A stretch of 64,000 nt of DNA, from NCBI GenBank assembly GCA_003116975.1, contig BGKB01000100.1, positions 1 to 64,000 of the forward strand, given 5' to 3'. This stretch comes from Aurantiochytrium sp. KH105 (Eukaryota; Sar; Bigyra; Thraustochytrida; Thraustochytriidae). The notes under the pieces are model-generated. The model was not told the origin of the DNA, made no database searches, and worked only from the letters and a program-made list of their open reading frames with translations. The position numbers and the translations under genes were made by a program. Below, piece by piece: positions 43,656-64,000 of this stretch (the stretch's first letter is position 1; each line of letters begins with the position of its first letter).

Positions 43656-44490
43656 CTTCGCCTCGTGCGCGTGGGCGGGCCCCTTCTGCCAGGGCTTGCC
43701 AGAGCTGGGCCTTTGGGGCTCCTGTTCATGCCCGTACACACGTACCCAGCAGCGAGGCGTGCGTGCGTGCGTATCTGCGTAGAGACGCGGCAGAGCGAGC
43801 GTTGGCTACGCGACGAGACAGTGCTCACCGCCGCCTCCCTCGCCTTTCGCGCGGATCGTACACGATGTTCAAGGTCTGTGCGCCACGCCAATGGCCACGG
43901 GGGCTGGCCCTGCACGTGCCAGCGAAAACAACGACGAAGGTGAACGAGTTTTCCGCGCCTTTACTGTGACGTCACACACACACACACACATGCGCGCGCG
44001 CGCGTCTGATTTTGCGGTAGTAAGCTATACCACACAACGAGCCCACCATCTGCAGCCAATGTGGACTTGATGTCATGGCGCGTTCGCTCTTGCCTTTCTT
44101 GCGAGCGAAACCAAGGGCACTGCCGGCTCATGTGAGATCAAATAATGAATGAACCGTTTAGCGGGCGTTTGTTGATCGGCGGAAAACGTCTTTTCTTTTT
44201 CTTTTCTTTTTTACGACCATTATCGTCTGCGCGAGTCTGACTTTGTCCCGAGTTACGAGGTTGAGTCATCAACGGCTACAACGGCTAGGTGAATGCGAGC
44301 GGAAATTGTGCAAAGACGGACGCGCTCTCAGCCGAGGCCCAAGTAGATAAGAAGGTAGAAAGGTGGTCGCTTTGCTGCTCGAAGACACTCGACGGCAAGC
44401 GATTGAAGTAAACGTCTTCGTGGAGCGGCGCGAAGGCGCGGAAGGCACATTAGCGAGCGAGCTTGGCAGCTCGATAGAGGGACTTGAACG
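43656..44490. promoter_or_regulatory. Divergent promoter of ankyrin and TTLL genes
   Basis: 835 bases. At 43965-43976 there is a perfect palindrome TGTGACGTCACA containing TGACGTCA, the classical CRE site bound by bZIP dimers. It is followed at once by the CA/GC array. The rest is mixed sequence with a T-rich run near 44190-44215. No gene. Confidence 0.55.
43973..44004. repeat. Alternating purine-pyrimidine (CA)n(GC)n tract
   Basis: Nine CA dinucleotides run into TGCGCGCGCGCGCG. The 32 bases alternate pyrimidine and purine almost throughout, a pattern that favours Z-DNA. It overlaps the 3' edge of the CRE palindrome. Confidence 0.9.
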
Positions 44491-47483: not shown

Positions 47484-50400
47484 TTAGGATTGACTACTCG
47501 AAGCAGAATGGTCGCGGAGCGGGAGACCAAGTTTCTCGCAGACTCTTCTCACAAGCGTATACGCTTCATTTTGAGCCTCGCGCCCATCCGTCTCGACTTT
47601 CACGATAACGTTTCCGGTAGCGCTTTGCGTGTGAGTTCCGTGACGATGAAGCGCCACGAGGTAGGGCAAGGTCTGTGGTCCTCTTCGAAGGGAGAACGTC
47701 CAATCTGATGAGCTCTGCTTGTCAAGCTTCTTCTCCCAAATGGCCTTGCAAAACTCATCGCGTACCCGCGAGCCGATGCTAGTTACGCTTCCGTCCCGCA
47801 ATTCCGAAGAAATTGAGCAGAGTAGTCTGCGCTCCACGTCTGAGAGCCCACTCTTCCGCGCACAATCCTTGCATACATCGTCACGATCATCAAGATTGTG
47901 ACCCTGGATCTCCGTGACTTGGCCGTCGAAATCGTACCGCCGTTCAAGTGGCAGAGCTCGGCGACAGGGTGGACACCAAAAGCATTCCGAACGATGCTCA
48001 TCGCAGAGGTGAGACCTGCTCTCAGGGCAACTCTTCATGCAACCCCCCTTGCGGCATCTCGACTTTCGCTTCTTCTGAGCTCTTGTAAGCCTACGGTAGT
48101 CAGAGCTTGGCTCATGCTCCCGACGATGGCGGAGAGACTCGATTGTACCAGTGTTGGGAGATGACAGCACGTCCACGGTCGTTTGCCTTGGCACTTCATT
48201 AATTATGCGCTGACATCCGGTGCAGCGCGAGCCGGGGCCCATGACACCAGGTACAACGCTGAAAATGTAGTCGCCCTGCTCATCGCTGCCCTTACGGAGA
48301 TGCTCATTTGGGTCCTTGCCATTCGTTGTGGACGACGCTACAGGAGCAAAACCCGCGTAATACTCAACGAAATTTATCGGGCTCATTTCGTCCGAGAAGC
48401 GCCACAGAATCATAGGTTGCAAACACTCTGTACAGTGCTCTCCACTCGCCAACTTCTCGACAACGCGTTTATGTGACGAATTCTCAATAAAGCAGTCAAA
48501 ATCAGCACCAGAGCTCGGCTCAGAAGCACACAGGGAGCAGGTGAGCAGGGGAAATTTGAGACTGCGTCGCTTTGCGTCTCTGGCAAAGCTGATCAGTCGA
48601 CTTGTGCCGTCTTTGACGTGCTTTTCATGAACCCAAAACCCGCATCGTCGTTTCTGATCATCGAGAGCAAATTCACCTCGAAAACACGACTCAGTCATAA
48701 GGTGCAACTTATCGGCAAGGCTGACTGGCGTCATGCTATCATGGCGGTCGCCTGTAAAGAAGCCAGGCTTCTTGCACGTGGCGCATGATGGCCACTTCTT
48801 ACGTACATCGTCCTCATATGCCTTGTCGAGTTGATGCGCAATGCGAGTCGCGTTCCTACCAGGCTGAATGGGGGATGTGGATGGCGCCTGGGTTCCTTGT
48901 GTTTTACGTTTGTTTCGATTGGACGATCGGAGCGTTCGATCGCTTTTTTCGACGGTAATAGCACGCAGATGTGTTTCCTCACTATCAGACTCACCCGACG
49001 ATGCATCCTCGCAGTCAGCGCCGGAGTCCGAGTCTGAGTCTGATCCTGATTCCGAGTCCGAGTCGTCCGCCTCTGCATCTTTGTCTAGGGTTGCGTCTTC
49101 CATCTCATCATCGCTGTCACTCTTTTGGGCATAAAATTCGCTGGAGCTGTCGTGTCTGCTGTGTCGATTTGTATTTGCCCTGTCATTCACCTCGTGACTG
49201 TGTCCGCCGGCATCTCCATTCGTGTTATCGTTCTCCGCGTGCTGGACACTCTCATTCTGAAACGCATTGCCGCCCTCGCTGCCGCGACGTTCGTCGTCTT
49301 CTTCTTCCACGTCTCCGTCGTCGACGTGATTGTCGCCGGCATCTCCGTCGTCGTCATCGTCGTCAACATCGGTATCTGCATAGTTTACAGCGGAATCAAT
49401 TCTTGGCCTCCTGAAACCTGGCCCCTCACTTGCCTCGTTCCTTTGGGCTTCGTCAATTTCTTCGATTGCACGTCTCCCGTCCATGCTATGAGGTGCGGCA
49501 TCAGGTTCAAGATCGTCACGATCAGGTTCCTCGTGCCTCGGTCTCCCTGTCGATGTTGGGGTCGAAGTGGGCGGCGAGGTATCGAGACGTCTCCTCACAT
49601 CTCTCGACGGGTCGATCGCGGGCCCGGGAGCTTGCTGTCTTGGCGAGCCCCAGGACTCCGAAACGTCATCTGCCTCCAGCCCATCAATATCCGTAAACTC
49701 ACTTCTGTCAATGCGCTCATTAGCACGTTGAAATCCATGACCATATGTCGGCAGCGTAATATCCGCGCAAAAGTCAGGCCGTTCGCAGATCCGCGCTGAC
49801 GATTGCTGAGGAGAGAAATAGTCGTCCTCGATACGAAGAGGCTTCTTGCAGTCTGAGCAGGTGACAAAAGCAGGAACTTGCATGAGTGCTTGTATGTCCT
49901 GAAGCGAGATGCCGCTTTGAAAAAGTGCTTTTGCGGCAAGGACCTTGTGCGGGTTGTCGTTGCGAATGATCAGAAACTTGGCAAGATGACGCTTCGGAAT
50001 GCCTGTGCCGCATAGGTACTTTTGCTCGATGATCTGCACCGCTTCGTCCACCGTGCCTTGGAGACGTCTGCTGTGCCGTTTAAGAATAGTTCTGATCGTG
50101 GCGCTATCGCGGTAGTTCCGTGTGACCCGTCCGAGGACCTGAAGGAAAGAGTTCATCTCGACACCCTTTGAGCGAAGCACCATGACAAATTGCTGCAGGG
50201 GAAAATTGAAGCCACGGATGTTCTTCATGAGAACGATGAGAAGATTTGCACGGCCGCTCTTGAAATCCTTTTCGACGTCGTCCGCCTCAATGTCGATAAA
50301 CGCCTGGCGCTTGGAGCACCACCGCTTGTGAATTTTTTCGAGGTCGACAATGGGAGTGAGGAACTGTTTGAATTTGGGACGTGCCCCGTGGGGGAGACTG

Positions 50401-52334
50401 ATCCATTTCTCGCCATCCAGACCGGCCTTAATGTAGCCCGAATACAGCCCATCGCCCTTGGGATTGCAGCAGTGATACCACTCTTGCTTTCTCGCCGACG
50501 CGTCTTCTTCGAGCTCGTATTCTGGATCGGCAATCTCCTGGAACTCCTCCTGGAACTTTGTAACGGCCCTTGCGTTCGAAAAGGACACCGTGCCAGCAAA
50601 AGGTAAGTAGTTGACCATTGTCTCGAAGAAGGCTCTTTCTTGGGCTGACTGAGCGCGTGGCAGGGGCTGCTGATGGAGCAAGTTTGCGCCCTCTAGGACT
50701 TTTTCAGCAAAGACCGAAAATCCAGAAATGAAGTCTTGAACATCGCTTGACATCGTCGCAGATCTTCCTTTGGGCCCTTGACCGTCGTAGAGGAAAATCG
50801 AAGGAAGCGAGGAGGGCGGCGATTCGATGCTCACTGATTGTCCAAGCCCCCAACCAAATCGGTAATCAGCACCCAGGATATTGCGCGCAACTCGCTCCTT
50901 GGAGCTCAGCACGTCGCATGTGCCGCTGAGGTGGAAGCTCACGGGGATGCGTGGCTCCACAACTTCCTTGAGCTCAAGACTTGTGGCGCCGTCCTTCCTG
51001 CTCGCAATATCTGCTTCGTCGCGAACGAGCTTGCCCCAGTGGGCCGCGCTTAGCCACATGGGGATCTGCTGATTGCGCTTGCGCTTGCTGGCTTTGCGTC
51101 GCGAACTCTTGTCGCTGTTCGAGTCCTTCCCTGAAAGGGTTCCCCAGCTTCCGACAAGAAGCACGACATGCTTGACATCCCATTGTGTGTCACATTTGTG
51201 ATTTTCGGTCGTGTACATGGGAAAGATGGGGCGCCAGCTCTTTTTACCCCCGAAGAAGCGAACTGTGCGAGCGAGAAGCCACGACAGAGGCGTGTACAAA
51301 TGGTTGCCAACTATGACCGTATCAAACATGGCTTCCGCGTACTTGCCGATCATAAACTGCCGCCCAAACACGCGGTGGAAGAGCTCGGCACCAAGCTTGA
51401 CCAACTTGACCTCGTCTTTGTTCTTGACCATAACGGCTCCGCTCAAGAGCGTGTCCCTGATGAAATCCCGTTTCTTCGCAATCGAATCGATGTCAAAGCG
51501 AAGCTTCGTAAGATTCAAAAGTTCCGTGCGCTCTTTGATCAGGATTTTGAGAATTCTCCAGATCCTGTCGATGCTTTCTTCATTTTCCAGCAGCAGCGTC
51601 AGATCGGGAAGGTCCCCGATAAAGGTTTGAGCAGGCTGCAGGTTGTATCCGAAAAAGACGGTGGACTCCATGAGACGATCAGTCGTGCCATTCAGCGAGT
51701 ACCCAACAACGCGGGCGTTGTCGTCCGCGATTTGCTTTACGATCGCTTTCGTCGTCGGGTCGCCAGACTTGATGCTTTTGCCACCACGAAGGACTTCGCG
51801 AAGGAAACGCGCGAGAGTCGTCGGTTTGTGCTGGCTGCTCAACCACTGCAGCCTTACAGGCATGTCACTCAGCACGTACTGGTACGCGAGGAGAGTACTC
51901 AGCAGGGTCTTGCCCTCGCCTGGAGCCAGAGGCACCTGCAAGCCGGGTTGAGTCACGGCAAGTGGACCCAGGTCGCGATCCTCGAAGACGCGGTTTTCTT
52001 TCTCGCGTTCATGGCGCACGACGCCCGTCTCCAGAGCCGTCATGACGAGCTGCTGCGAGGGGCGAAGAGAAAGATCGTTCGCGCCGCGTTTCGTCTTGAC
52101 GAAGTGCGCTAGACGAATGAATTGCTCGTTCTTGCGTATCTCCGCTTCGTCCAGCGAAGAACGGTTCGTGTCCCATTCCTTACACCCCTTCACCAGCTCA
52201 TCCAGGTTCTCCTCCGATATCACCTCTTCGATATTGCCCTGGTGACGCGCCACGGCAAGGGCCTCCGCTTGCCCCAGAGGGACGACACGCGCGCCCTCGT
52301 GGCGGGATGTAGCCATTTTCGATGCTCCGGCCAT
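47484..52334 (-). CDS. Large SF2 helicase with acidic region and cysteine clusters, copy A
   Basis: A 1616-residue protein from the ATG at 52334. It is a superfamily 2 helicase: a Q-motif-like SLRPSQQLVM (about 89-98), motif I LAPGEGKTLL (136-145), a long non-conserved insert, motif II DEAD (439-442), motif III LSGT (469-472), motif V region NLLIVLMKNIRGFNF (698-712) and motif VI LQVLGRVTR (731-739). After residue 850 comes a cysteine pair (CSDCKKPL), then a disordered acidic region (about 930-1180). A series of Cys pairs follows: CATCKKPG, CSLCASEP, CTECLQPM, CTGCQRI, CRKGGCMKSC with CFWCPPC, and CKDCARK, probably zinc-binding. It lacks RecQ, SNF2 or Helitron signatures. Function is unknown. 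It could act in DNA repair, chromatin or element maintenance. The gene is intact, intronless and nearly the same as copy B at 58571. Confidence 0.85.
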   Translation of the reverse strand: MAGASKMATSRHEGARVVPLGQAEALAVARHQGNIEEVISEENLDELVKGCKEWDTNRSSLDEAEIRKNEQFIRLAHFVKTKRGANDLSLRPSQQLVMTALETGVVRHEREKENRVFEDRDLGPLAVTQPGLQVPLAPGEGKTLLSTLLAYQYVLSDMPVRLQWLSSQHKPTTLARFLREVLRGGKSIKSGDPTTKAIVKQIADDNARVVGYSLNGTTDRLMESTVFFGYNLQPAQTFIGDLPDLTLLLENEESIDRIWRILKILIKERTELLNLTKLRFDIDSIAKKRDFIRDTLLSGAVMVKNKDEVKLVKLGAELFHRVFGRQFMIGKYAEAMFDTVIVGNHLYTPLSWLLARTVRFFGGKKSWRPIFPMYTTENHKCDTQWDVKHVVLLVGSWGTLSGKDSNSDKSSRRKASKRKRNQQIPMWLSAAHWGKLVRDEADIASRKDGATSLELKEVVEPRIPVSFHLSGTCDVLSSKERVARNILGADYRFGWGLGQSVSIESPPSSLPSIFLYDGQGPKGRSATMSSDVQDFISGFSVFAEKVLEGANLLHQQPLPRAQSAQERAFFETMVNYLPFAGTVSFSNARAVTKFQEEFQEIADPEYELEEDASARKQEWYHCCNPKGDGLYSGYIKAGLDGEKWISLPHGARPKFKQFLTPIVDLEKIHKRWCSKRQAFIDIEADDVEKDFKSGRANLLIVLMKNIRGFNFPLQQFVMVLRSKGVEMNSFLQVLGRVTRNYRDSATIRTILKRHSRRLQGTVDEAVQIIEQKYLCGTGIPKRHLAKFLIIRNDNPHKVLAAKALFQSGISLQDIQALMQVPAFVTCSDCKKPLRIEDDYFSPQQSSARICERPDFCADITLPTYGHGFQRANERIDRSEFTDIDGLEADDVSESWGSPRQQAPGPAIDPSRDVRRRLDTSPPTSTPTSTGRPRHEEPDRDDLEPDAAPHSMDGRRAIEEIDEAQRNEASEGPGFRRPRIDSAVNYADTDVDDDDDDGDAGDNHVDDGDVEEEDDERRGSEGGNAFQNESVQHAENDNTNGDAGGHSHEVNDRANTNRHSRHDSSSEFYAQKSDSDDEMEDATLDKDAEADDSDSESGSDSDSDSGADCEDASSGESDSEETHLRAITVEKSDRTLRSSNRNKRKTQGTQAPSTSPIQPGRNATRIAHQLDKAYEDDVRKKWPSCATCKKPGFFTGDRHDSMTPVSLADKLHLMTESCFRGEFALDDQKRRCGFWVHEKHVKDGTSRLISFARDAKRRSLKFPLLTCSLCASEPSSGADFDCFIENSSHKRVVEKLASGEHCTECLQPMILWRFSDEMSPINFVEYYAGFAPVASSTTNGKDPNEHLRKGSDEQGDYIFSVVPGVMGPGSRCTGCQRIINEVPRQTTVDVLSSPNTGTIESLRHRREHEPSSDYRRLTRAQKKRKSRCRKGGCMKSCPESRSHLCDEHRSECFWCPPCRRALPLERRYDFDGQVTEIQGHNLDDRDDVCKDCARKSGLSDVERRLLCSISSELRDGSVTSIGSRVRDEFCKAIWEKKLDKQSSSDWTFSLRRGPQTLPYLVALHRHGTHTQSATGNVIVKVETDGREAQNEAYTLVRRVCEKLGLPLRDHSASSSQS

Positions 52335-52735
52335 TGTTCTCTTGCGCTTGCTTGTTCACCTCTACTGGGTGCTTTGCCTTTGCTCTGCTTTGCTTGCGTG
52401 GCGTCGGTCGGGTGCTCTTCGTGCTCGTCTTGCTTTGCTTTGTTCTTCGTCTCGGAGTTGCGGGTTTGCTGCGGCAGGCCGCGCGACGAGCGGAGATGCC
52501 CCCGCCTTCCTCCTTCATCCCGCCTTCTTCCACCATTTCGACACACGAGGTGAGATCAAGTTTTTTTTAGAGAGCTCTCGAGACTGCGAAGTCGAGAGAG
52601 CGAAGTCGAGCTCGAGAGCGAGAGCACTCTCTGCGGGTCGTGCCTGCAGCACCGCGGCCGCGCAGAGAATCTCACCGCGCAGCGAGGGTCCCTCCTCCGC
52701 CGCTGGGCGGCCAGGTGATACGAGACGCAGCAGAC
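52335..52735 (-). promoter_or_regulatory. Shared upstream region of helicase A
   Basis: The first 210 bases upstream of the start codon match those of copy B almost base for base. They begin TGTTCTCTTGCGC and include repeated CTTTGC and GCTTGC segments and the CCGCCTTCTTCCACCATTTCG block. Copies then diverge for about 30 bases. Similarity resumes through a GAGAGCGAGAGC stretch (52600-52625), CAGAGAATCTCACCGCGCAG (52669-52688) and into the tandem repeats. It probably contains the promoter, but no defined site was recognised. Confidence 0.55.
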
Positions 52736-53555
52736 GGTGGCCACGTGCCATGAGCTTGCAAAACGTGACACGAAGACACTTCTTTGCCAGCGGCAACCAG
52801 CCAGCCGCAGGTGATATGAGACGCAGCAGCAGCAGACAGTGAGTGTCGAAAGCTTGTGAAACATGACACGAAGACACTTCTTTGCCAAGACAGCCCGCAG
52901 CATCACACGAAGCGGTCACGGCACCGAAAGCAGCGGCGGCAGCGGCGGCAGCCGCAAGCAGGAAGACCAGGCCCGCCCAAGCGAGGCGGACTCCGAGCAG
53001 CAGAGGGTGGCCATGTGACATGAGCTAGCAGAGTATGACACGAAGACACTTCTTTGCCAGCGGCGGGCCAGCCAGCCATGGCCGGTGACATGAGCCGCAG
53101 CAGACAGTGAGTGGCGAGAGCTTGAGAAACGTGGCACGAAGACACTAGTTGCCAAGACAGCCCGCAGCATCGCACGAAGCGGCCACGCCACCGAAACCAG
53201 CAGCAGCAGCACAGCAGCAGCCGCAAGCAGGAAGACCAGGCCCGCCCAAGCTAGACGGACTCCGAGCAGCAGAGGGTGGCCATGTGACATGAGCTAGCAG
53301 AGTATGACACGAAGACACTTCTTTGCCAGCGGCGGGCCAGCCAGCCGCAGGTGATATGAGACGCAGCAGCAGCAGACAGTGACCTGGTGAGTGTCAAAAG
53401 CTTGTGAAACATGACACGAAGACACTAGTTGCCAAGACAGCCCGCAGCATCGCACGAAGCGGCCACGCCACCGAAACCAGCAGCAGCAGCACAGCAGCAC
53501 AGCAGCAGCCGCAAGCAGGAAGACCAGGCCCATCCAGGCCAGGCGGACGCCGAGC
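52736..53555. repeat. Three 270-bp tandem repeats upstream of helicase A
   Basis: Units start at 52736, 53006 and 53275 (periods 270 and 269), each opening GGTGGCCA(C/T)GTG. The third ends near 53555. Each unit is an internal dimer: a core beginning TGACACGAAGACACT occurs at 52766, 52864, 53036, 53305 and 53412, and a one-base variant at 53132. Units carry CAG-rich blocks and a CCGCAAGCAGGAAGACCAGG segment. The first unit has the E-box CACGTG. The same repeat starts upstream of copy B at 63892. Whether it is a regulatory array, a subtelomeric repeat or the end of a mobile unit is open. Confidence 0.93.
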
Positions 53556-54380
53556 GTGCACATTTAGCCTTGAAGCCAGCCTCACCCCGCCCCCGCCTCT
53601 GGTGAGGGTTCGGGGTCTTCTTGGCAGCGGAGCTTGCCGACGATTTCTCAATCGATCGAGGCCTAGGTGCACACGTTCATTGTGAAAAGAGAGAGTGAAG
53701 TGAGAGCGCAGTCGAGAGCGCTTGCTTGCTGCTGAAGTGAACACGACGAGGAGATAGAGAAAGGGGGGGAAGGAGGCAAGGGAGCAATACGCAAACAGTA
53801 CTGCCTCATCTACACTGCGACGGGCCCGCGCTAGCCTCGCCTCCCGCGCCTTTGGGCTCAGAGCGCCGCTACCAGGGCTCTCTCTGCCTGCCCGCCTGCC
53901 TGCCCGCCTGCCTACACGGGAGTCAGATCGCGCTCATCTGAGCAAAGCAAGTCCGGAACTGCTGCTGCGCTAGGTAGGGCACGCGAAGCTGCCGGGACGC
54001 GGCGCTCCAGGGAAGGCTCCACAGACAGCCGCGGCGCACGGCCCGTCGCAGGGCGAACAGCTTTGCAAAGCTCGCGGCTTGCAAGCTTGCTTGCACGCTG
54101 GAGTTGGAATTGACCGTGAGGACGCGCGAGGAGCCTCGTCCGACGCAGTTTACCCGTGCGCGGGCCAGCGAGACATTGTGTTCCACTACGATCCACCAGA
54201 GCAGAGCCACAAAGTTCGTAAGCCTCGCAAGTTGCTTGTTGTGGATTCTACATCGATTGATATCGCTGGGCACGTTGATTTACTTTTCTTTCGCATCAAA
54301 ATTGCACAATACGGAACGCAGATCTCGAAGCTACTCCATTCGGGTGAAAGAGAAAGGACCGTCAGGACGAAGTAGACCAG
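53556..54380. other. Intergenic between tandem repeats and the 386-residue orphan
   Basis: 825 bases with no gene seen. A GCCTGCC run at about 53888-53914 is the only obvious simple repeat. From about 54090 the DNA becomes less GC-rich, continuing into the orphan gene. The left edge, GTGCACATTTAGCC, resembles the outer flank of copy A (CACATCTTAGG at about 47478), a weak hint of an insertion boundary. Confidence 0.5.
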
Positions 54381-55541
54381 ATGAATCCCATGTTGAAGAC
54401 TTGGGAGGAGCTCAGCAAGGATTCCGTGAAAGAGAAAATGCAACGATTTATCGGCACTGAATCAGCTCGTGTACTCACATCTTTCTGGGAACCACATGAG
54501 CTCGTCAAAGTGGAGCTGGCTATGAGAAAAGTCAAACCTACAAAGAAAACTGCTGACATTCTGGAAGAAATCTTTGCCACCAATTACTTTCACGAGGGAA
54601 CGCACGTGAAGAACATTGTCCGCGGAAGATGGAAAAAGGATCTGGAGAAAACTAAGGCATTGCTTGAGAAAAATGGCCCACCTGGTCACAGAGCTAAAGG
54701 CGAAGCAGTTCCACTGACACTATTCAGGTACTCACTCAAATACCGTCTCACGCCGCATGCTAAAATTGAGAACGACGAAAATCTGGTCATTCAGAATCTG
54801 TGGGAGCTCTTTCGCGGGAAAGCATGCAACACGTATGTATCTTCGATCCTTCATCGCGGTGTTGCCTACTCAACGAAAGGTCGATCTGGGGCGCAGAGCG
54901 TGTCAGGCGGTACGAGCATTGCAACAAGCGATTTGAATAATGCTCAAGCTGCGCATCTGCTCCCCGAAGGAATGCAAACGTCTCCAACGCACGAGAATAT
55001 TCCTGGCCACGCTTTAACACCTTCATCACAGAGTTCTTCGCCTCCGGGCAATCGAGGTATAAAGAGAAGGTTAGACTCCATGGACAGCGCCAGCAGTGAG
55101 TCGTTAGCCATATCATCCATCGTGTTACCAATCCGACGACCCAAAGTGGAGGCGGATTCATCAAGAACCTCCGGCGCGGCTCCTTCGCCACAGGTATCAT
55201 CCATGCCGTTGTCGGCAACAAGTCCGCAAATGACCCCTCAGTCAAGATCGCGGCAGCCTCCGCGCGAAGTTTGCATGTCGACAAAGAAGACAGAGAAGTC
55301 GAAGTCACGAATCAAGAGGGAACCTGAGTCCTCCACCTCTCGCAGCATGGCGAGGGAGGAAAGAAATGGTACTGAAGCGTGTGGCAGAATCTCCACGTTT
55401 TCACGAGTCGCGAGTGCGGCGAATGTCGTCGGCACTTCGTCCAAGGCGAAACGAAAAGCAAGAAAGCTCGATGAACGTTGCTCCTCCGCTCATTCTTCAG
55501 CACCTCGTGCCGGAGATCCAGACGTCATCGATCTTACCTGA
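54381..55541 (+). CDS. Orphan protein ending in a SUMO-interacting motif
   Basis: A 386-residue protein from the ATG at 54381. I do not recognise a family. Residues 1-110 are predicted helical and charged (WEELSKDSVKEKMQRFIG; AMRKVKPTKKTADILEEIF). A second folded-looking stretch, PLTLFRYSLKYRLTPHAKI, runs to about 160. The remaining 220 residues are Ser/Pro/Thr-rich and disordered, with basic patches (KKTEKSKSRIKREPES). Two short motifs stand out: IKRE, which fits the SUMO attachment consensus, and the very last residues DVIDLT, a canonical SUMO-interacting motif like those of PIAS and RNF4. A nuclear, SUMO-linked role is therefore plausible. Its base composition is less GC-rich than that of the housekeeping genes. 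It lies between the two helicase copies and is convergent with the next orphan. Confidence 0.8.
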   Translation: MNPMLKTWEELSKDSVKEKMQRFIGTESARVLTSFWEPHELVKVELAMRKVKPTKKTADILEEIFATNYFHEGTHVKNIVRGRWKKDLEKTKALLEKNGPPGHRAKGEAVPLTLFRYSLKYRLTPHAKIENDENLVIQNLWELFRGKACNTYVSSILHRGVAYSTKGRSGAQSVSGGTSIATSDLNNAQAAHLLPEGMQTSPTHENIPGHALTPSSQSSSPPGNRGIKRRLDSMDSASSESLAISSIVLPIRRPKVEADSSRTSGAAPSPQVSSMPLSATSPQMTPQSRSRQPPREVCMSTKKTEKSKSRIKREPESSTSRSMAREERNGTEACGRISTFSRVASAANVVGTSSKAKRKARKLDERCSSAHSSAPRAGDPDVIDLT

Positions 55542-56139
55542 GTTTCGATCATTGAAAGGTAAAGTACTTGAATCTGTTTTCTAAAGTCTCTTGAACGCTA
55601 TGAGTAATTCGATGCCGAACTCTTGTGCACAATCTCGTGAGCTTCTTGTTTCCGAGGTATATGCAAACCATGTGCATCTTGGAACAAACGCAGGTCAGGT
55701 ATGAGCTATACAGAAAGTCCAGTGTGTCTCATATTCATCTTTGCTCTTTCTTCTCATCATTGAAAGGAAGTACTCACAAGACACTTCAAGTTGCAACAAA
55801 GAACCAGATTAACTCATCATAAGATTCGAAGTTGTTCAAGAGATTCTCGAAAATATAAGGAATCGCCTCTCCTTGACCGAAGGCCTTGCGCAGCCGCACG
55901 CGCTGTCCCTGCAAAACCTGGCAAAAACTCAATCAGCAGCTAGCCAGCGTGGTAGGACAACAACCAGGTTGAACCGGGTCCTTCAAGACACCCCCCCCCC
56001 CCCTCCCCGGTGCGGGCCCTGCAGGGATGTGGAAAACACGGCCTTGTTAAGGCATGCCGCATGGGCGAGTAGAATTTGGAATGGCTCAGCTGCATCAAAA
56101 AGATCTTCGTTTGTCGTCACGTACGGGAAAAGAAAGTCG
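55542..56139. other. Intergenic between convergent orphans, with poly-C run
   Basis: 598 bases of AT-rich 3' flank on the left. At 55991-56003 there is a run of 13 C residues, followed by CTCCCCGG. No gene. Confidence 0.6.
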
Positions 56140-58086
56140 TCAATCCCCTGACCTCTGTTTCTTAAGGACTTGCTTCATGTTGGCGAGCTTGTTCTTGAGC
56201 TGCTTGTCGTTCGGAAACAACGCTGGCTTGTCGCTTGGCATTGCGCTCCATTCTGCCTCAGTCTGGCCCCACTTCTTACGGAAAAACTGGAGAGCATCCT
56301 TCGTAGCCAAAGATTGGTCAAGGGCTTCTTTAAGCGTTGCGACGTAGCGCGGATCCAGCCGGTCGCGCTTTCGCTTGGGTGCACGCTCTGCTTGCGTGTT
56401 GCCTTGTGTACTGCTTGCTTCTTGGCCTTGGCCAGCGGATCGCTGAGCTCTTCGCATCTGCATCAACTTGTCGGTGATGGTCTTGACCTGGACTGGATCC
56501 TCCATGTCCATGAGACCGCGTTGCTCCTCCGCATTTGCCGCAATAGAGCAGTGATGCCCAAAAGAACTATCCTTTGCGTTGGCATGTCGAAGCTCGACAA
56601 GAACTCTTGGTGAGTTGTTGAAGCGCTTGATAACGATGCAGAAGTTGCAGCCCTCGAGAACCTCTTTGCCAGACCTTGAATGCCTACCTTTGAACACCAA
56701 GTCGCCCACCTCTGGTACGCAAACACTAGCATTAGCTGCCCAAGATGACGCGACTTCATGAAGCGCCCTCAGCGCTAGCAAACCACGCTGCACCAGCTTC
56801 TGATCGACTTTCGAGACACCATTTTCCACTGCTCGCATAGTACTGTCAGCGAACGCTCCGACGTGCTCGATGGCACAATAGGCTTCATCGAGTAAATTGC
56901 CGTCGAGCCCTGCAACTTTTTTTAGGTACGAATCCTGTAAGTCTCGAAGAAGACGAAGTCGAATGCCGTTGCTTTCATCTTTTGCCCAGAGATCGGTCAG
57001 CGGAGCCCCAGGCGAGCCTGTGATCTTCTCTACCAACTTGCAGAGCACCTCGAGATCGTGCACCTGGTGTGCAGCAATGCGATTATTCTTCGCCAGTACG
57101 GATTGCGCGTGAGACTGGTTCCGCCGTTGTTGCGCATCAAATTTCGCCTTAAATCGACACTGAAACGTTTGGGACACGGTACATGGTCCAGCTTTGATCT
57201 TCTGGGAGATGCTTGAGTCTGATGGCTCACGCTCTCCGTCCTCCTGTTGCGATTGCCCTCCCCCCCCTAAAGCGGGTTGCTGATGTTGTCGAAGCAAAGC
57301 CTTCGCGCTTGATTCAAACATCGCGTTGTCGAAGGCACCCTTCTTACGTGACAAGCCTTCAAGATAGAGAGATTTCTCCACCATCTTGATCGACTTCGCG
57401 GTTTTCTCCCTTCCCCGCCACTTGCGTGCCTTCTTCTTGCCGTTTTTCGGCGGCGCATCGCCCGGACGTTCCGGAGGCTCAAGAAGTGCTGGATCGGGAT
57501 CGAAGCCATACGCCTTCAAGTCCTGCCGAAGCTCCTCCAGTGCGACATCGAAAGCATGCTGCTTTCCATTAACGTCCGAAGGATTGGCACGCTGCTTGTC
57601 CGTCCACTTGATGCGCGCAAGGGTAGTGTAGTATCCCCAGTCATCGATGGTCAAGCCCCTTGTCTTCGTCATGAAGGAATCACAGCCCATGTTCCCCAAG
57701 GTCAGTTGCGCGATGGAATCGTCCTTGAAGACGAAGGAAATGTTTGCGTCCGAACCCGACTTGTGTGAGGCGATTTTGTGAGCATTTTCACTCGCAGCCC
57801 GAAGAGACCAAACGTTTTCCTCAAGTTCGCTCAATGGAGCGCATAGTTCCTCTGATTCCTCCACCTCTGCAACGGGAGGTGAGAGATCAACGCCGCCACC
57901 GTCCTCTTGGAAGGTGTCTCTGGAGCCATGATCACGGAGGACAGCATGCATAAGGTGCGGTTGAGAATTAGCTTCAACTGTGCTAGGCCTACTCTCGCAC
58001 GAGCCATCTCGCGACGGCAGAGGCTCGTCTTCGAGCACGTTTGGCGCCTTAGCGTGGCTGTTGGCGGAAACCTGGACGCTCGTCAT
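56140..58086 (-). CDS. Orphan charged protein between the helicase copies
   Basis: A 648-residue protein from the ATG at 58086 (MTSVQVSANSHAKAPNVLED). An earlier in-frame ATG at 58284 would add 66 residues that look like translated leader, so I left them out. No known family was recognised. The first 130 residues are acidic and Ser/Pro-rich. A folded-looking part starts at TIDDWGYYTTLARIKWTDKQ and runs into a basic stretch (KKARKWRGREKTAKSIKMVE). The middle is helical, including HQVHDLEVLCKLVEKITG and DSYLKKVAGLDGNLLDEAYC. A segment with EVGDLVFKGRHSRSGKEVLEG recalls small beta domains that bind chromatin or RNA, but this is only a texture. The C-terminal 130 residues are basic and helical, rich in Lys/Gln. 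It follows helicase B on the same strand with 484 bases between. Confidence 0.75.
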   Translation of the reverse strand: MTSVQVSANSHAKAPNVLEDEPLPSRDGSCESRPSTVEANSQPHLMHAVLRDHGSRDTFQEDGGGVDLSPPVAEVEESEELCAPLSELEENVWSLRAASENAHKIASHKSGSDANISFVFKDDSIAQLTLGNMGCDSFMTKTRGLTIDDWGYYTTLARIKWTDKQRANPSDVNGKQHAFDVALEELRQDLKAYGFDPDPALLEPPERPGDAPPKNGKKKARKWRGREKTAKSIKMVEKSLYLEGLSRKKGAFDNAMFESSAKALLRQHQQPALGGGGQSQQEDGEREPSDSSISQKIKAGPCTVSQTFQCRFKAKFDAQQRRNQSHAQSVLAKNNRIAAHQVHDLEVLCKLVEKITGSPGAPLTDLWAKDESNGIRLRLLRDLQDSYLKKVAGLDGNLLDEAYCAIEHVGAFADSTMRAVENGVSKVDQKLVQRGLLALRALHEVASSWAANASVCVPEVGDLVFKGRHSRSGKEVLEGCNFCIVIKRFNNSPRVLVELRHANAKDSSFGHHCSIAANAEEQRGLMDMEDPVQVKTITDKLMQMRRAQRSAGQGQEASSTQGNTQAERAPKRKRDRLDPRYVATLKEALDQSLATKDALQFFRKKWGQTEAEWSAMPSDKPALFPNDKQLKNKLANMKQVLKKQRSGD

Positions 58087-58570
58087 GATCACTTGGTTCA
58101 CCTGGTTGCTTGTGGCTCTCAAGCAGCAGTACTCGAAGCAATGAGGGAGGGAGCCTGCGTTGCCTCCTTTGCCTCGCGCGTGCAGACAACTTGCAGCGCG
58201 GCCGCTACCAGGCGTCGCGCAGCGAAAAGGGATGGGCTTGCACAGCGTAGTATCCTCTCTGCTTGCAGATCGTTGCAGACCCATTCTATTTTTTCCCTTC
58301 GTGGCGCCTGCCCACCGGGTCGAGTTTCTAATAACCACTTCCCGCAGTGCGGTAAAAGTCTCGTATATACAATCCCCCCAGACCTGCGGTGTTTCGTCGA
58401 TGTTTCTCGTCACAACGAGATCGGTCGATCAATCGATTCGCCGAAGAGGAAAACGAAGGTGAAAGGATCCAGGTGCCAACAGGCCTTCGAACTTTCCTTT
58501 ATGTTATACTCAGGAACTCTGTGGTTCATTGAGGTAAAAGAAGAAAAATTGGGTTGTTGTTAGCACCTCA
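58087..58570. other. Gap between helicase B and the 648-residue orphan
   Basis: 484 bases from the orphan's chosen start to the helicase B stop codon. About 330 of these stay open in the orphan's frame from a GTG. Similarity to the flank of copy A is absent from the stop codon onward. No separate gene seen. Confidence 0.5.
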
Positions 58571-61500
58571 TTAGGATTGACTACTCGAAGCAGAATGGTC
58601 GCGGAGCGGGAGATCAAGTTTCTCACAGACTCTTCTCACAAGCGTATATGCTTCATTTTGAGCCTCGCGCCCATCCGTCTCGACTTTCACGATAACGTTT
58701 CCGGTGGCGCTTTGCGTATGAGTTCCGTGACGATGAAGCGTCACGAGGTAGGGCCAGGTCTGTGGTCCTTTTCGAAGGGAGAACGTCCAATCTGATGAGC
58801 TCTCTCTGTCAAGTTTTCTCTCGTTGATGGCCTTGCGAAACCTCTTGCGTACGAACAAGCCGGTGTCAGTCAAGCTTGCGACCGGGAGTTCCACATTGAC
58901 TATGCCGAGCAATCTGCGCTCAGAGTCCGAGAGTCGAATCTTCTCCGCACAATCCTTGCATACATCGTCACGATCATCAAGATTGTGCTCCTGAATCACT
59001 ATCACTCGGCCGATAGAATTACACCGCTGCGCAAGTGGCAGAGCTCGGCGACAGGGGGGACACCAAAAGCATTCCGAACGATGCTCATCGCAGAGGTGAG
59101 ACCTGCTCTCAGTGCAACTCTTCATGCAACCCCCCTTGCGGCATCTCGACTTTCGCTTCTTCTGAGCTCTTACAAGCCTACGGTAGTCTGAGCCTGGCTC
59201 ATGCTCCCGACGATGGCGGAGAGACTCGATTGTACCAGTGCCGCGAGATGACAGCACGTCCACGGTTGTTTCCGTTGGCGCTTCGTCAACAATGCGCTGA
59301 CATCCGGTGCAGCGCGAGCCGGGGCCCATGACACCAGGTACAACGCTGAAAATATAGTCGCTCTGCGCATCGCGGCCCTTGCGGAGATGCTCATTCGGGT
59401 CCTTGCCAGTCGTTGTGGACGATGCTACAGGAGCAAAACCCGCGTAATACTCAACGAAATTTATCGGGCTCATTTTGTCCGAGAAGCGCCACAGAATCAT
59501 AGGTTGCAAACACTCTGTACAGTGCTCTCCACTTGCCAACTTCTCGACCACGCGATCATGCGACGAATTCTCAATAAACCAGTCAAAATCAGCACCAGAG
59601 CTCGGCTCAGAAGCACACAGGGAGCAGGTGAGCGTGGGAAATCTGAGACTGCGTCGCTTTGCGTCTCTGGCAAAGCTGATCAGCCGGTTTGCGCCGCGTG
59701 TAACGTGCTTTTCATGTGGCCAGAAGCCGCATCGTCGATTCTGATCATCGAGAGCAAATTCACCTCGAAAACACGACTCAGTCATAAGGTGCAACTTATC
59801 GGCAAGGCTGACTGGCGTCATGCTATCATAGCGGTCGCCTGTAAAGAAGCCAGGCTTCTTGCACGTGGCGCATGATGGCCACTTCTTACGTACATCGTCC
59901 TCATATGCCTTGTCGAGTTGATGCGCAATGCGAGTCGCGTTCCTACCAGGCTGAATGGGGGATGAGGATGGCGCCTGGATTCGTTGCATTCTGCGCTTGT
60001 TTCGATTGGACGATCGGAGCGTTCGATCGCTTGTTCCGACGGTAATAGCGCGCAGATGTGTTTCCTCACTATCAGACTCACCGGAGGATGCATCCTCGAA
60101 GTCAGCGCCGGAGTTTGACTCGAAGCCAGAATCCGATTCCGGTTCCGAGTCGGATCCTGAGTCCGAGTCGTCCGCCTCTGCATCTTTGTCTAGGGTTGCG
60201 TCTTCCATCTCATCATCGCTGTCACTCTTTTGGGCATAAAATTCGCTGGAGCTGTCGTGTCTGCTGCGTCGAACTGTATTTTCCCTATCATTCAGCTCGC
60301 GACTGTGCCCGCCGGCATCTCCATTCGTGTTATCGTTCTCCGCGTGCTGGACACTCTCCGTTTGAAACGCATTGCCGCCCTCGCTGCCGCGATATTCGTC
60401 GTCCTCTTCTTCCATGTCTTCCTCATCGACGTGATTGTTGCCGACATATTCGTCGTCGTCATCGTCGTCAGCATCGGTATCTGCACAGTTTACAGCGGAA
60501 TCAATTCTTGGCCTCCTGAAACCTGGCCCCTCACTTGCCTCGTTCCTTTGAGCTTCGTCAATTTTTTCGATTGCACGGCTCGCGTTTACGCTATGAGGTG
60601 TGGCATCAGCTTCAAGATCGTCACGATCAGGTTCCTCGTGCCTCGGTCTCCCTGTCGATGTTGGGGTCGAAGTGGGCGGCGAGGTATCGAGACGTCTCCT
60701 CACATCTCTCGACGGGTCGATCGCGGGCCCGGGAGCTTGCTGTCTTGGCGAGACCCAGGACTCCGAAACGTCATCTGCCTCCAGCCCACCAAGATCCGTA
60801 AACGCACTTCTGTCAATGAGCTCATTAGCACGTTGAAATCCATGACCATATGTTGGCAACGTAATATCCGCGCAAGAGTCAGGCGGTTCGCAGATCCGCG
60901 CTGACGATTGCTGAGGAGAGAAATAGTCGTCCTCGATACGAAGAGGCTTCTTGCAGTCTGAGCAGGTGACAAAAGCAGGAACTTGCATGAGTGCTTTTAT
61001 GTCCTGAAGCGAGATGCCGCTTTGGAAAAGTGCTTTTGCGGCAAGGACCTTGTGCGGGTTGTCGTTGCGAATGATCAGAAACTTGGCAAGATGACGCTTC
61101 GGAATGCCTGTGCCGCATAGGTACTTTTGCTCGATGATCTGCACCGCTTCGTCCACCGTGCCTTGGAGACGTCTGCGGTGCCGTTTAAGAATAGTTCTGA
61201 TCGTGGCGCTATCGCGGTAGTTCCGTGTGACCCGTCCGAGGACCTGAAGGAAAGAGTTCATCTCGACACCCTTCGAGCGAAGCACCATGACAAATTGTTG
61301 CAGGGGAAAATTGAAGCCACGGATGTTCTTCATGAGAACGATGAGAAGATTTGCACGGCCGCTCTTGAAATCTTTTTCGACGTCGTCCGCCTCAATGTCG
61401 ATAAACGCCTGGCGCTTGGAGCACCAACGCTTGTGCATTTTTTCGAGGTCGACAATGGGAGTGAGGAACTGTTTGAACCTGGGACGTGCCCCTGGGGGGA

Positions 61501-63439
61501 GACTGATCCATTTCTCGCCATCCAGACCGGCCTTAATGTAGCCCGAATACAGCCCATCGCCCTTGGGATTGCAGCAGTGATACCACTCTTGCTTTCTCGC
61601 CGACGCGTCTTCTTCGAGCTCGTATTCTGGATCGGCAATCTCCTGGAACTCCTCCTGGAACTTTGCAACGGCCCTTGCGTTCGAAAAGGACACAGTGCCA
61701 GCAAAAGGTAAGTAGTTAACCATCGTCTCGAAGAAGGCTCTTTCTTGGGCTGACTGAGCGCGTGGCAGGGGCTGCTGATGGAGCAAGTTTGCGCCCTCTA
61801 GGACGTTTTGAGCAAAGACCGAAAATCCAGAAATGAAGTCTTGAACGTCGCTTGACATCGTCGCAGATCTTCCTTTGGGCCCTTGACCGTCGTAGAGGAA
61901 AATCGAAGGAAGCGAGGAGGGCGGTGATTCGATGCTCACTGATTGCCCAAGCCCCCAACCAAATCGGTAATCAGCACCCAGGATATTGCGCGCAACTCGC
62001 TCCTTGGAGCTTAGCACGTCGCATGTGCCGCTGAGGTGGAAGCTCACGGGGATGCGTGGCTCCACAACTTCCTTGAGCTCAAGACTTGTGGCGCCGTCCT
62101 TCCTGCTCGCAATGTCTGCTTCGTCGCGAACGAGCTTGCCCCAGTGGGCCGCGCTTAGCCACATGGGGATCTGCTGATTGCGCTTGCGCTTGCTGGCTTT
62201 GCGTCGCGAACTCTTGTCGCTGTTCGAGTCCTTCCCTGAAAGGGTTCCCCAGCTTCCGACAAGAAGCACGACATGCTTGACATTCCATTGTGTGTCACCT
62301 TCGTGATCTTCGGTCGTGTACATGGGAAAGATGGGGCGCCAGCTCTTTTTACCCCCGAAGAAGCGAACTGTGCGAGCGAGAAGCCACGACAGAGGCGTGT
62401 ACAAATGGTTGCCAACTATGGCCGTATCAAACATGGCTTCCGCGTACTTGCCGATCATGAACTGCCGCCCAAACACGCGGTGGAAGAGCTCGGCACCAAG
62501 CTTGACCAACTTGACCTCGTCTTTGTTCTTGACCATAACGGCTCCGCTCAAGAGCGTGTGTCTGATGAAATCCCGTTTCTTCGCAGTTGAATTGATGTCA
62601 AAGCGAAGCTTCGTAAGATTCAAAAGTTCCGTGCGCTCTTTGATCAGGACTTTGAGAATTCTCCAGATCCTGTCGATGCTTTCTTCATTTTTCAGCAGCA
62701 GCGTCAGATCGGGAAGGTCCCCGATAAAGGTTTGAGCAGGCTGCAGGTTATATCCGAAAAAGACGGTGGACTCCATGAGACGATCAGTCGTGCCATTCAG
62801 CGTGTACCCAACAACGCGGGCGTTGTCGTCCGCGATTTGCTTTACGATCGCTTTCGTCGTCGGGTCGCCAGACTTGATGCTTTTGCCACCACGAAGGACT
62901 TCGCGAAGGAAACGCGCAAGAGTCGTCGGTTTGTGCTGGCTGCTTAACCACTGCAGCCTTACAGGCATGTCACTCAGCACGTACTGGTACGCGAGGAGAG
63001 TACTCAGCAGGGTCTTGCCCTCGCCTGGAGCCAGAGGCACCTGCAAGCCGGGTTGAGTCACGGCAAGTGGACCCAGGTCGCGATCCTCGAAGACGCGGTT
63101 TTCTTTCTCGCGTTCATGGCGCACGACGCCCGTCTCCAGAGCCGTCATGACGAGCTGCTGCGAGGGGCGAAGAGAAAGATCGTTCGCGCCGCGTTTCGTC
63201 TTGACGAAGTGCGCTAGACGAATGAATTGCTCGTTCTTGCGTATCTCCGCTTCGTCCAGCGAAGAACGGTTCGTGTCCCATTCCTTACACCCCTTCACCA
63301 GCTCATCCAGGTTCTCCTCCGTTATAACCACTTTGACATCGCCCTGGTGCCGCGCCACGGCAAGGGCCTCCGCTTGCCTCAGAGCGACAACACGCGCGCC
63401 CTCGTGGCGGGATGTAGCCATTTTCGATGCTCCGGCCAT
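58571..63439 (-). CDS. Large SF2 helicase with acidic region and cysteine clusters, copy B
   Basis: A 1622-residue protein from the ATG at 63439, paralogue of the gene at 47484. Every helicase motif is kept: LAPGEGKTLL, DEAD, LSGT and LQVLGRVTR. All the C-terminal cysteine pairs also match. About thirty residues differ over the first 900, most of the rest being identical, so the copies are recent. The acidic region (about 930-1190) varies more and accounts for the six-residue length difference. A patch of about 90 residues near 1450-1545 is strikingly different, yet the last 75 residues are almost identical again. Both reading frames being intact suggests selection for the protein, or very recent duplication. 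The upstream flank carries the same short repeats as copy A. Its role remains unknown, and a multicopy, telomere-linked or mobile helicase is one reading. Confidence 0.85.
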   Translation of the reverse strand: MAGASKMATSRHEGARVVALRQAEALAVARHQGDVKVVITEENLDELVKGCKEWDTNRSSLDEAEIRKNEQFIRLAHFVKTKRGANDLSLRPSQQLVMTALETGVVRHEREKENRVFEDRDLGPLAVTQPGLQVPLAPGEGKTLLSTLLAYQYVLSDMPVRLQWLSSQHKPTTLARFLREVLRGGKSIKSGDPTTKAIVKQIADDNARVVGYTLNGTTDRLMESTVFFGYNLQPAQTFIGDLPDLTLLLKNEESIDRIWRILKVLIKERTELLNLTKLRFDINSTAKKRDFIRHTLLSGAVMVKNKDEVKLVKLGAELFHRVFGRQFMIGKYAEAMFDTAIVGNHLYTPLSWLLARTVRFFGGKKSWRPIFPMYTTEDHEGDTQWNVKHVVLLVGSWGTLSGKDSNSDKSSRRKASKRKRNQQIPMWLSAAHWGKLVRDEADIASRKDGATSLELKEVVEPRIPVSFHLSGTCDVLSSKERVARNILGADYRFGWGLGQSVSIESPPSSLPSIFLYDGQGPKGRSATMSSDVQDFISGFSVFAQNVLEGANLLHQQPLPRAQSAQERAFFETMVNYLPFAGTVSFSNARAVAKFQEEFQEIADPEYELEEDASARKQEWYHCCNPKGDGLYSGYIKAGLDGEKWISLPPGARPRFKQFLTPIVDLEKMHKRWCSKRQAFIDIEADDVEKDFKSGRANLLIVLMKNIRGFNFPLQQFVMVLRSKGVEMNSFLQVLGRVTRNYRDSATIRTILKRHRRRLQGTVDEAVQIIEQKYLCGTGIPKRHLAKFLIIRNDNPHKVLAAKALFQSGISLQDIKALMQVPAFVTCSDCKKPLRIEDDYFSPQQSSARICEPPDSCADITLPTYGHGFQRANELIDRSAFTDLGGLEADDVSESWVSPRQQAPGPAIDPSRDVRRRLDTSPPTSTPTSTGRPRHEEPDRDDLEADATPHSVNASRAIEKIDEAQRNEASEGPGFRRPRIDSAVNCADTDADDDDDDEYVGNNHVDEEDMEEEDDEYRGSEGGNAFQTESVQHAENDNTNGDAGGHSRELNDRENTVRRSRHDSSSEFYAQKSDSDDEMEDATLDKDAEADDSDSGSDSEPESDSGFESNSGADFEDASSGESDSEETHLRAITVGTSDRTLRSSNRNKRRMQRIQAPSSSPIQPGRNATRIAHQLDKAYEDDVRKKWPSCATCKKPGFFTGDRYDSMTPVSLADKLHLMTESCFRGEFALDDQNRRCGFWPHEKHVTRGANRLISFARDAKRRSLRFPTLTCSLCASEPSSGADFDWFIENSSHDRVVEKLASGEHCTECLQPMILWRFSDKMSPINFVEYYAGFAPVASSTTTGKDPNEHLRKGRDAQSDYIFSVVPGVMGPGSRCTGCQRIVDEAPTETTVDVLSSRGTGTIESLRHRREHEPGSDYRRLVRAQKKRKSRCRKGGCMKSCTESRSHLCDEHRSECFWCPPCRRALPLAQRCNSIGRVIVIQEHNLDDRDDVCKDCAEKIRLSDSERRLLGIVNVELPVASLTDTGLFVRKRFRKAINERKLDRESSSDWTFSLRKGPQTWPYLVTLHRHGTHTQSATGNVIVKVETDGREAQNEAYTLVRRVCEKLDLPLRDHSASSSQS

Positions 63440-63705
63440 TGTTCTCTTGCGCTTGCTTGTTCACCTCTACTGGGTGCTTTGCCTTTGCTCCGCTTGCTTG
63501 CGTGGCGTCGGTCGGGTGCTCTTCGTGCTCGTCTTGCTTTGCTTTGTTCTTCGTCTCGGGGTTGCGGGTTTGCTGCGGCAGGCCGCGCGACGAGCGGAGA
63601 TGCCGCCTTCCTCCTTCATCCCGCCTTCTTCCACCATTTCGCGGCGCCGCTGAGAGTGCGAGTTTATACAGGTGAGATCGATTTGAGAGTGCTCTTTGCA
63701 AAATC
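63440..63705 (-). promoter_or_regulatory. Shared upstream region of helicase B
   Basis: Nearly identical to the upstream region of copy A for about 200 bases from the start codon, then diverging after CCACCATTTCG. A short copy-specific segment, GCGGCGCCGCTGAGAGTGCG, replaces the one in A. Promoter sites cannot be named. Confidence 0.55.
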
Positions 63706-63774
63706 GAGAGCGAGAGCGACTTGAGAGCGAGAGCGACTTGAGAGCGAGAGCGACTTGAGAGCGAGAGCGAGAGC
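63706..63774. repeat. 17-bp tandem array upstream of helicase B
   Basis: The unit GAGAGCGAGAGCGACTT is repeated three times with a partial fourth copy ending in GAGAGCGAGAGCGAGAGC. Copy A has only a single degenerate version of this stretch at about 52600-52625, so the two upstream regions differ here in copy number. Confidence 0.9.
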
Positions 63775-63891
63775 ACCCCTGCTGGCCCCGCAGCACTGCG
63801 GCCGCGCAGAGATTCTCACCGCGCAGGCTGCGCGCGAAGCGCCCCGCGTGACTCGTGTCCCAGCGGCCAGGTGACACGAGTCGCAGCAGAC

Positions 63892-64000
63892 GGTGGCCAC
63901 GTGACATAAGCTTGCAAAACGTGACACGAAGACACTTCTTTACTTTACCAAGGCAGTTCGCAGCAGCATCGCCCGAACCGGCTACGCTACCGTGGCCACT
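63892..64000. repeat. Start of the 270-bp repeat beside helicase B (cut by window edge)
   Basis: It opens GGTGGCCACGTGACATAAGC, close to the first unit beside copy A, and holds the core beginning TGACACGAAGACACT at 63922. It then continues with CAAGGCAGTTCGCAGCAGC, like the later part of a unit. The number of units beyond the window is unknown. Confidence 0.85.

Follow-up and report, generated by a model that had tools for sequence, protein, structure and literature searches.

Helicases of superfamily 2 (SF2) are recognized by a Walker A sequence (motif I), a DEAD or DExH sequence (motif II), a SAT- or SGT-like motif III and a motif VI of the type QxxGRxxR, and their fold comprises two RecA-like domains. 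Large helicase ORFs which are subject to concerted evolution are known from the Y' elements of yeast and from the fungal telomere-linked helicases, and the locus described here resembles these systems in exactly this respect. In contrast to the Y' elements, it occupies one interior position, shows no telomere link and yields no RecQ-type Pfam match. With the ResIII/XPB-like helicases, represented by the helicase of the Sinorhizobium phage Phosso (546 aa, Pfam ResIII and Helicase_C), the helicases of the locus share the order of motif I, motifs V–VI and a following CxxC cluster. However, the motor of helicase A is longer (approximately 770 residues, 294 of which separate motifs I and II), and the acidic linker and the C-terminal zinc region are extras of the family described here. 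The SecA DEAD domain has a GEGKT-type motif I in common with helicases A and B and produced a sub-threshold Pfam match, but this match is limited to residues 43–161 and absent in helicase C. To our knowledge, neither the zinc region nor the acidic linker is a feature of SecA. The genes which adjoin the helicases, termed partners, encode low-complexity tails with a hydrophobic-hydrophobic-D-L-T motif like that of the SUMO-interacting-motif proteins PIAS and RNF4.

Organization of the helicase-partner locus

The sequence studied (the window) corresponds to the initial 64 kb of the 230-kb contig C100, which belongs to an assembly of 76 Mb in 367 contigs. Two loci of the assembly scored 930 bits each with the PUFA-synthase model omega_3_PfaA, a strong match although below the model cut-off of 1010. 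This is compatible with a thraustochytrid, but the model also responded below its cut-off in 11 of 14 control prokaryotes, so that the match is no more than supportive. The helicase and partner genes form head-to-head pairs, each separated by an intergenic region of 1–2 kb (Table 1). Helicases A and B are 92% identical at the protein level and 95.0% identical in their coding DNA. Both ORFs are intact, in agreement with an earlier note on this DNA which had described two near-identical genes of about 1.6 kilo-residues. Helicase C is 43–44% identical to helicase A. The earlier note did not record the partner genes, and helicase C was beyond its reach because this gene is located outside the window.

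Table 1: Positions of the genes and intergenic regions of the locus. Coordinates refer to the window unless preceded by C100; the starts of partners B and C are assumed to be the ATG preceding the conserved domain.
Feature	Position	Strand	Remarks
Helicase A	47484..52334	-	1616 aa, ATG to stop, internal stops absent
Helicase A-partner A intergenic region	52335..54380	.	putative shared promoter
Partner A (pA)	54381..55541	+	386 aa, head-to-head with helicase A
ORF757	56140..58413	-	757 aa, lies between units A and B
Helicase B	58571..63439	-	1622 aa, ATG to stop, internal stops absent; architecture as helicase A
Helicase B upstream region	63440..64000	.	continues to partner B beyond the window
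Partner B (pB)	C100:64544-66127	+	527 aa, outside the window, faces helicase B
Helicase C	C100:66723-71834	-	1703 aa, just past the window
Partner C (pC)	C100:72976-74154	+	outside the window, faces helicase C

The same gene order, helA(-) pA(+), ORF757(-), helB(-) pB(+), helC(-) pC(+), is found on a second contig, C107, which is collinear with C100 over the approximately 70 kb fetched, in blocks of 90–96% identity. The topoisomerase I gene of the window gave two full-length matches in the assembly, one on C100 and one on C107, and the remaining 51 match rows were short pieces. C100 and C107 probably represent two haplotypes; alternatively, they may be homeologues from a hybrid. The earlier note would have been undermined by a second copy created during assembly. 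Since helicases A and B are repeated in the same order on C107, no artefact is obvious and this origin of the two copies was rejected.

On one side the cluster is flanked by topoisomerase I and tubulin-tyrosine-ligase-like (TTL-like) genes, identified by Pfam. The genes on the other side we take, from our own reading of the ORFs, to be quinone-oxidoreductase-like (QOR-like) and seryl-tRNA-synthetase-like. All of these neighbours look ordinary. The distance from the cluster to either contig end is at least 47 kb on C100 and approximately 75 kb or more on C107. Over the fetched stretch the two contigs differ by the presence or absence of an ankyrin-repeat gene (window 42180–43739, minus strand), which has no counterpart in the collinear region C107:52001–122000. 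A segment of approximately 4.7 kb just beyond pair C (C107:103536–108233) is absent from C100, where it would fall between C100:75926 and 76027.

The genome search with ORF757 yielded at least 82 match rows among the best 59 of 116 candidates, some of them two pieces of one copy. Residues 642–755 recurred in at least 18 places with one identical score and 77% identity and appear to be a recently amplified repeat. Residues 106–642 matched contig C363 at 76%, and parts of the ORF matched four more loci at 33–35%, plus others. The counterpart on C107 is 94% identical and contains two in-frame TGA codons. Pfam assigned ORF757 to no family. By its many genome matches it is repeat-derived or chimaeric, and it was rejected as a member of the helicase or partner family.

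Domain structure and family assignment of the helicases

Helicase A is composed of a motor (approximately residues 60–830), a CxxC cluster (826–856), an acidic linker (approximately 870–1165), a zinc-rich C-terminal region (approximately 1180–1491) and a tail extending to residue 1616. The motor carries the sequences GEGKT (139–143), RDEAD (438–442), SGT (470–472) and QVLGRVTR (732–739). The corresponding SF2 motifs I, II, III and VI occur in this order and are invariant in all six family members (A, B and C on C100 and C107). Seven CxxC pairs (826/829, 1184/1187, 1266/1269, 1301/1304, 1371/1374, 1454/1457 and 1488/1491) are invariant in the same six proteins, and so, in addition, is C1427/C1432. 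Overall, 26 of 35 Cys, 13 of 20 Trp, 48 of 106 Gly and 16 of 45 His residues of helicase A are identical in all six. Thus, the full SF2 motif set, the long insert between motifs I and II and the six or more cysteine pairs recorded in the earlier note were confirmed. The acidic tail of the same note is actually an internal linker located before a zinc-rich C-terminal region of approximately 450 aa. Its content of D and E in helicase A amounts to 38% in residues 981–1040 and 32% in residues 1041–1100. The acidic stretch of helicase C is weaker, with at most 22% D and E in the measured windows.

The best Pfam match of helicases A and B was SecA_DEAD with an E-value of 0.029–0.03 and a score of 14 bits, below the cut-off of 24.6. 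Helicase C gave no helicase-like match in Pfam. RecQ, SNF2 and Pif1/Helitron domains of Pfam were not detected at E ≤ 1 in helicases A, B and C, and the motors gave no ResIII, DEAD or Helicase_C match in Pfam. When helicases A and B, partner A and ORF757 were compared with NCBIfam and PHROGs, the lowest E-values were 0.047 (an adhesin, aligned to the low-complexity linker) and 0.067, respectively; the profile scan of helicase C and of partners B and C covered Pfam only. Searches of the PDB by sequence and by profile produced only chance-level rows for the helicases. An hhalign comparison of the motor with the genome's own DEAD-box protein revealed no similarity (prob 0.5). These results bear out the earlier view that the helicases cannot be placed in the RecQ, SNF2, Pif1/Helitron or DEAD-box groups, and the search of profile libraries proposed there led to no significant match for an SF2-like motor combined with zinc clusters.

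A search of phages with helicase A returned a single weak tblastn match (E 0.04), the helicase of Sinorhizobium phage Phosso, which is 25% identical to helicase A over 198 columns in BLASTP. The phage search with helicase C returned zero matches. For hhalign, the family profile was compared with nine phage proteins, namely Phosso and 8 of 24 others among the matches listed (409 records in all); one of the nine lacks its start. Motifs V–VI aligned with prob 57.7 and E 1e-4, over 56 columns only. The alignments of motif I (prob 1.7) and of the following CxxC cluster (prob 0.5) were colinear with it and insignificant alone. As controls, the reversed motor and C-terminal half gave 0.2–0.4, and the genome's own DEAD-box protein as the positive control gave 97.3. 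No relatives of the helicases were found by four pattern scans of viral contigs (IMG/VR) or by two pattern scans of contigs from prokaryotic genomes, and none of helicase A in plasmids. Distant relatives can escape the contig scans because these were seeded by short exact peptide patterns. Measured against the viral, prokaryotic, plasmid and phage collections, the novelty of the helicases is qualified by one weak phage match at the sensitivity used. Among the literature matches listed, no title named such a helicase-partner locus.

AlphaFold models of the motor (mean pLDDT 30.1, from the two near-identical window sequences) and of the partner A domain (mean pLDDT 37.3, from one sequence) were too poor to compare, which we think is due to a lack of sequence depth. 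From the motifs and one sub-threshold profile match we conclude that the helicases are most probably SF2 proteins of a family unnamed by the libraries used. Their nearest relatives within SF2 are perhaps of the ResIII type.

Copy number and gene conversion

The genome search with helicase A (E ≤ 0.001, 9 of 9 candidates scored) gave seven match rows which correspond to six genes, the three helicases of each contig. With helicase C as the query (E ≤ 1, 21 of 21 scored), these six genes were retrieved again together with five short matches, of which three fall within the Gln/Ala repeat of the query. The helicase family is therefore found at one interior locus only, with three members per contig in the 76-Mb assembly. 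The earlier note had proposed a multicopy, amplifying family, possibly linked to telomeres, and had suggested counting the copies and mapping them relative to chromosome ends. The count is six genes on two collinear contigs and not many copies, and the cluster maps to the interior. Runs of at least three TTAGGG or TTTAGGG units on either strand were absent from the last 5 kb at all four ends of C100 and C107, and the neighbouring genes look ordinary. Consequently, the telomere link was rejected. A telomere-linked or amplifying family is extremely unlikely, even though two near-identical intact copies lie 11 kb apart, since their near-identity also has another origin, a conversion tract.

In windows of 250 bases, helicases A and B are 97–100% identical on C100 and 95–100% identical on C107 at positions 161–2410, and 73% identical on both contigs at positions 4381–4630. 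Past the stop codon the identity of A and B is 45–53%, the level of unrelated DNA, while the alleles are 90–98% identical there (87–96% in the last short window). The breakpoint test was based on 157 coding sites at which A, B and their C107 counterparts group by allele or by contig; five cross-type sites were left out. The best single break is located between coding positions 3641 and 3787, near codon 1,240. On its 5' side the grouping is by contig, A with B, at 76 of 81 sites (the remaining 5 are of the allele type), and on its 3' side it is by allele at 71 of 76. The likelihood ratio of this break was 71.5 compared to a permutation maximum of 12.9, and none of 2,000 permutations was as good. 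Thus, A and B are old copies in which a 5' tract (codons 1 to approximately 1,240) was homogenised by gene conversion in each haplotype.

This identity could also have been obtained by recent tandem duplications that occurred independently in the two haplotypes, or by a motor half under strong constraint, and the motor half is indeed the more constrained one. However, most of the sites after codon 1,240–1,260 or so group by allele, and therefore both copies predate the split of C100 and C107. Moreover, each helicase copy has its own old partner. Synonymous divergence is lower in the motor half as well: dS between A and B is 0.042 (C100) and 0.057 (C107) in residues 1–830, and 0.147 and 0.203, respectively, in the C-terminal part, so that protein constraint alone is insufficient. 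We regard an origin of the identity other than conversion as very improbable.

With the conversion signature the argument for recent amplification falls, and this explanation was rejected: the two copies taken as recent in the earlier note are old outside the converted tract. The statement that the family is under selection or amplifying holds for its first part, as the ORFs are intact and dN/dS is below 1, whereas amplification is unsupported. As this case shows, near-identical neighbours can be mistaken for a recent amplification.

Partner genes, selection and possible function

Partner A consists of a conserved domain (residues 1 to approximately 162) and a low-complexity tail which ends in DVIDLT. 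A genome search with this protein (E ≤ 1) detected six partner genes, all at the helicase locus, and two short matches (E 0.03 and 0.38). The partner family thus occurs three times, each time beside a helicase and nowhere else in the assembly, which suggests inheritance of the pair as a unit; the head-to-head arrangement may also be a coincidental co-duplication. Each partner domain is at the same distance from the other two (47/154, 47/151 and 47/152 identical residues, approximately 31%). Therefore, the helicase-partner unit was triplicated long ago. Among the helicases, A and B share 1143 of 1213 residues and A and C 530 of 1167, a pattern that old units with converted helicases A and B would produce.

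No partner reached a Pfam cut-off, the only match of partner A being EcoR124_C at a sub-threshold E of 0.1, and the partner profile gave no rows in the PDB. SIM-like motifs are present in partner A (VIDLT at 382, the last five residues) and in partner B (YIDLE at 403 and FIDLT at 521 of 527, two residues before the end). In partner C, scanned as a whole protein, TIDLS at 186 is not C-terminal, and the tail taken from residue 190 contains no such motif. Shuffled tails carried a motif of this kind in 5, 10 and 24 of 5000 cases for partners A, B and C, respectively, for a pattern which is short and was chosen after viewing the tails. By its motif, the IDLT-type sequence would be SUMO-interaction-like.

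The intergenic region of pair A contains a 269-bp tandem repeat in 2.8 copies (52727–53499), whose unit shares sequence with the helicase B upstream region. The upstream regions of helicases A and B are 78% identical over the first 450–500 bases or so. Compared to the corresponding region of pair C, the A and B regions gave no match at E 1e-3.

Selection was assessed by dN/dS between C100 and C107 for 12 of 13 genes; the ankyrin gene has no value because its counterpart is absent on the C107 stretch. The helicases gave 0.34 (A), 0.47 (B) and 0.19 (C), where the values of A and B mix conversion with selection and have to be read with care. The whole partners gave 0.96 (A, bootstrap 0.54–1.73), 0.62 (B, 0.43–0.90) and 0.27 (C) with the assumed starts; longer ORFs resulted in 0.69 for partner B and 0.30 for partner C. 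For the partner domains alone the values were 1.00, 0.73 and 0.06, respectively. Among the other genes we obtained 0.07 for topoisomerase I, 0.08 for the TTL-like, 0.01 for the seryl-tRNA-synthetase-like and 0.39 for the QOR-like gene, and 0.30 for ORF757; a few unrelated neighbours are thus also middling. Pair C is the constrained pair: both its helicase and its partner are clearly constrained in their reading frames, and the constraint on partner A is weak or lacking. For partners A and B, the comparison of two sequences does not distinguish between relaxation, decay and diversification. The value of 1.00 for the partner A domain could indicate decay.

The explanation which we favor, and to which we give an even chance, is that three paralogous helicase-partner pairs in one cluster act as a SUMO-guided nuclear translocase system. 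In each pair, a putative large zinc-cluster SF2 helicase or translocase would be encoded on the minus strand, diverging across the intergenic region from its partner on the plus strand. The motor may drive ATP-dependent movement along nucleic acid in the nucleus, and the zinc region may bind nucleic acid or protein. The N-terminal domain of the partner would dock on the helicase and its IDLT-type motif would read SUMO, so that the pair would form a SUMO-guided translocase on chromatin or on replication or repair intermediates. Judged from sequence, a nuclear SF2 translocase with a SUMO-reading adaptor is the likeliest function. Pair C has the appearance of a conserved housekeeping version. Pairs A and B resemble duplicates that evolve faster and between which conversion maintains the similarity of the helicases. 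Provided that the pairing is functional, the locus would represent, in a probable thraustochytrid, an SF2 family unnamed by the libraries used here whose dedicated partner was duplicated along with it. It would also be a clear natural case in which conversion homogenises the motors and the adjoining partners are free to diverge.

A less probable, though still serious, alternative is a host helicase of the ordinary kind, conserved within its lineage (for example in labyrinthulomycetes) and present in related genomes as an unannotated prediction, which underwent a tandem duplication at this locus and whose neighbour is not part of a system. The single locus, the ordinary-looking neighbours and the purifying selection on C fit this explanation. 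Against it stands the partner family, present three times, always beside a helicase and not elsewhere in the assembly. Should relatives prove common in other protists, the locus would reduce to a locally duplicated host helicase of an ordinary, as yet unnamed kind. At the speculative end, pairs A and B might form a lineage-specific two-component nuclear conflict system: a divergent SF2 translocase and a fast-evolving, SUMO-reading partner that chooses the target, for instance viral or transposon DNA. In such a tandem array the motors would be homogenised by conversion while the partners diversify, giving one engine several specificities. Fast partners and homogenised motors would fit a genetic conflict, but this is a guess and we consider the system improbable.

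Slightly less credit is due to a domesticated or still mobile element, or a viral cassette, that carries the helicase. The profile libraries used do not recognize the helicase family, the homology of A and B ends sharply at the stop codon, and the repeat-related ORF757 lies between the units, all of which would suit such an element. On the other hand, the cluster occupies the same site on both contigs, inverted repeats of at least 60 bp are absent from the 64-kb window, and no transposase or capsid family was detected in the 14 ORFs given to Pfam. IMG/VR scans and plasmids contained no helicase relatives, and phages contributed one weak match. As the searches of the 76-Mb assembly revealed no dispersed copies, the mobile element reading was rejected.

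Finally, C100:78641–80128 (+) contains an ORF with many Cys/His repeats, which by eye only resemble WRKY-like zinc repeats. This repeat-rich CxxC gene showed a dN/dS of 0.51 between C100 and C107.
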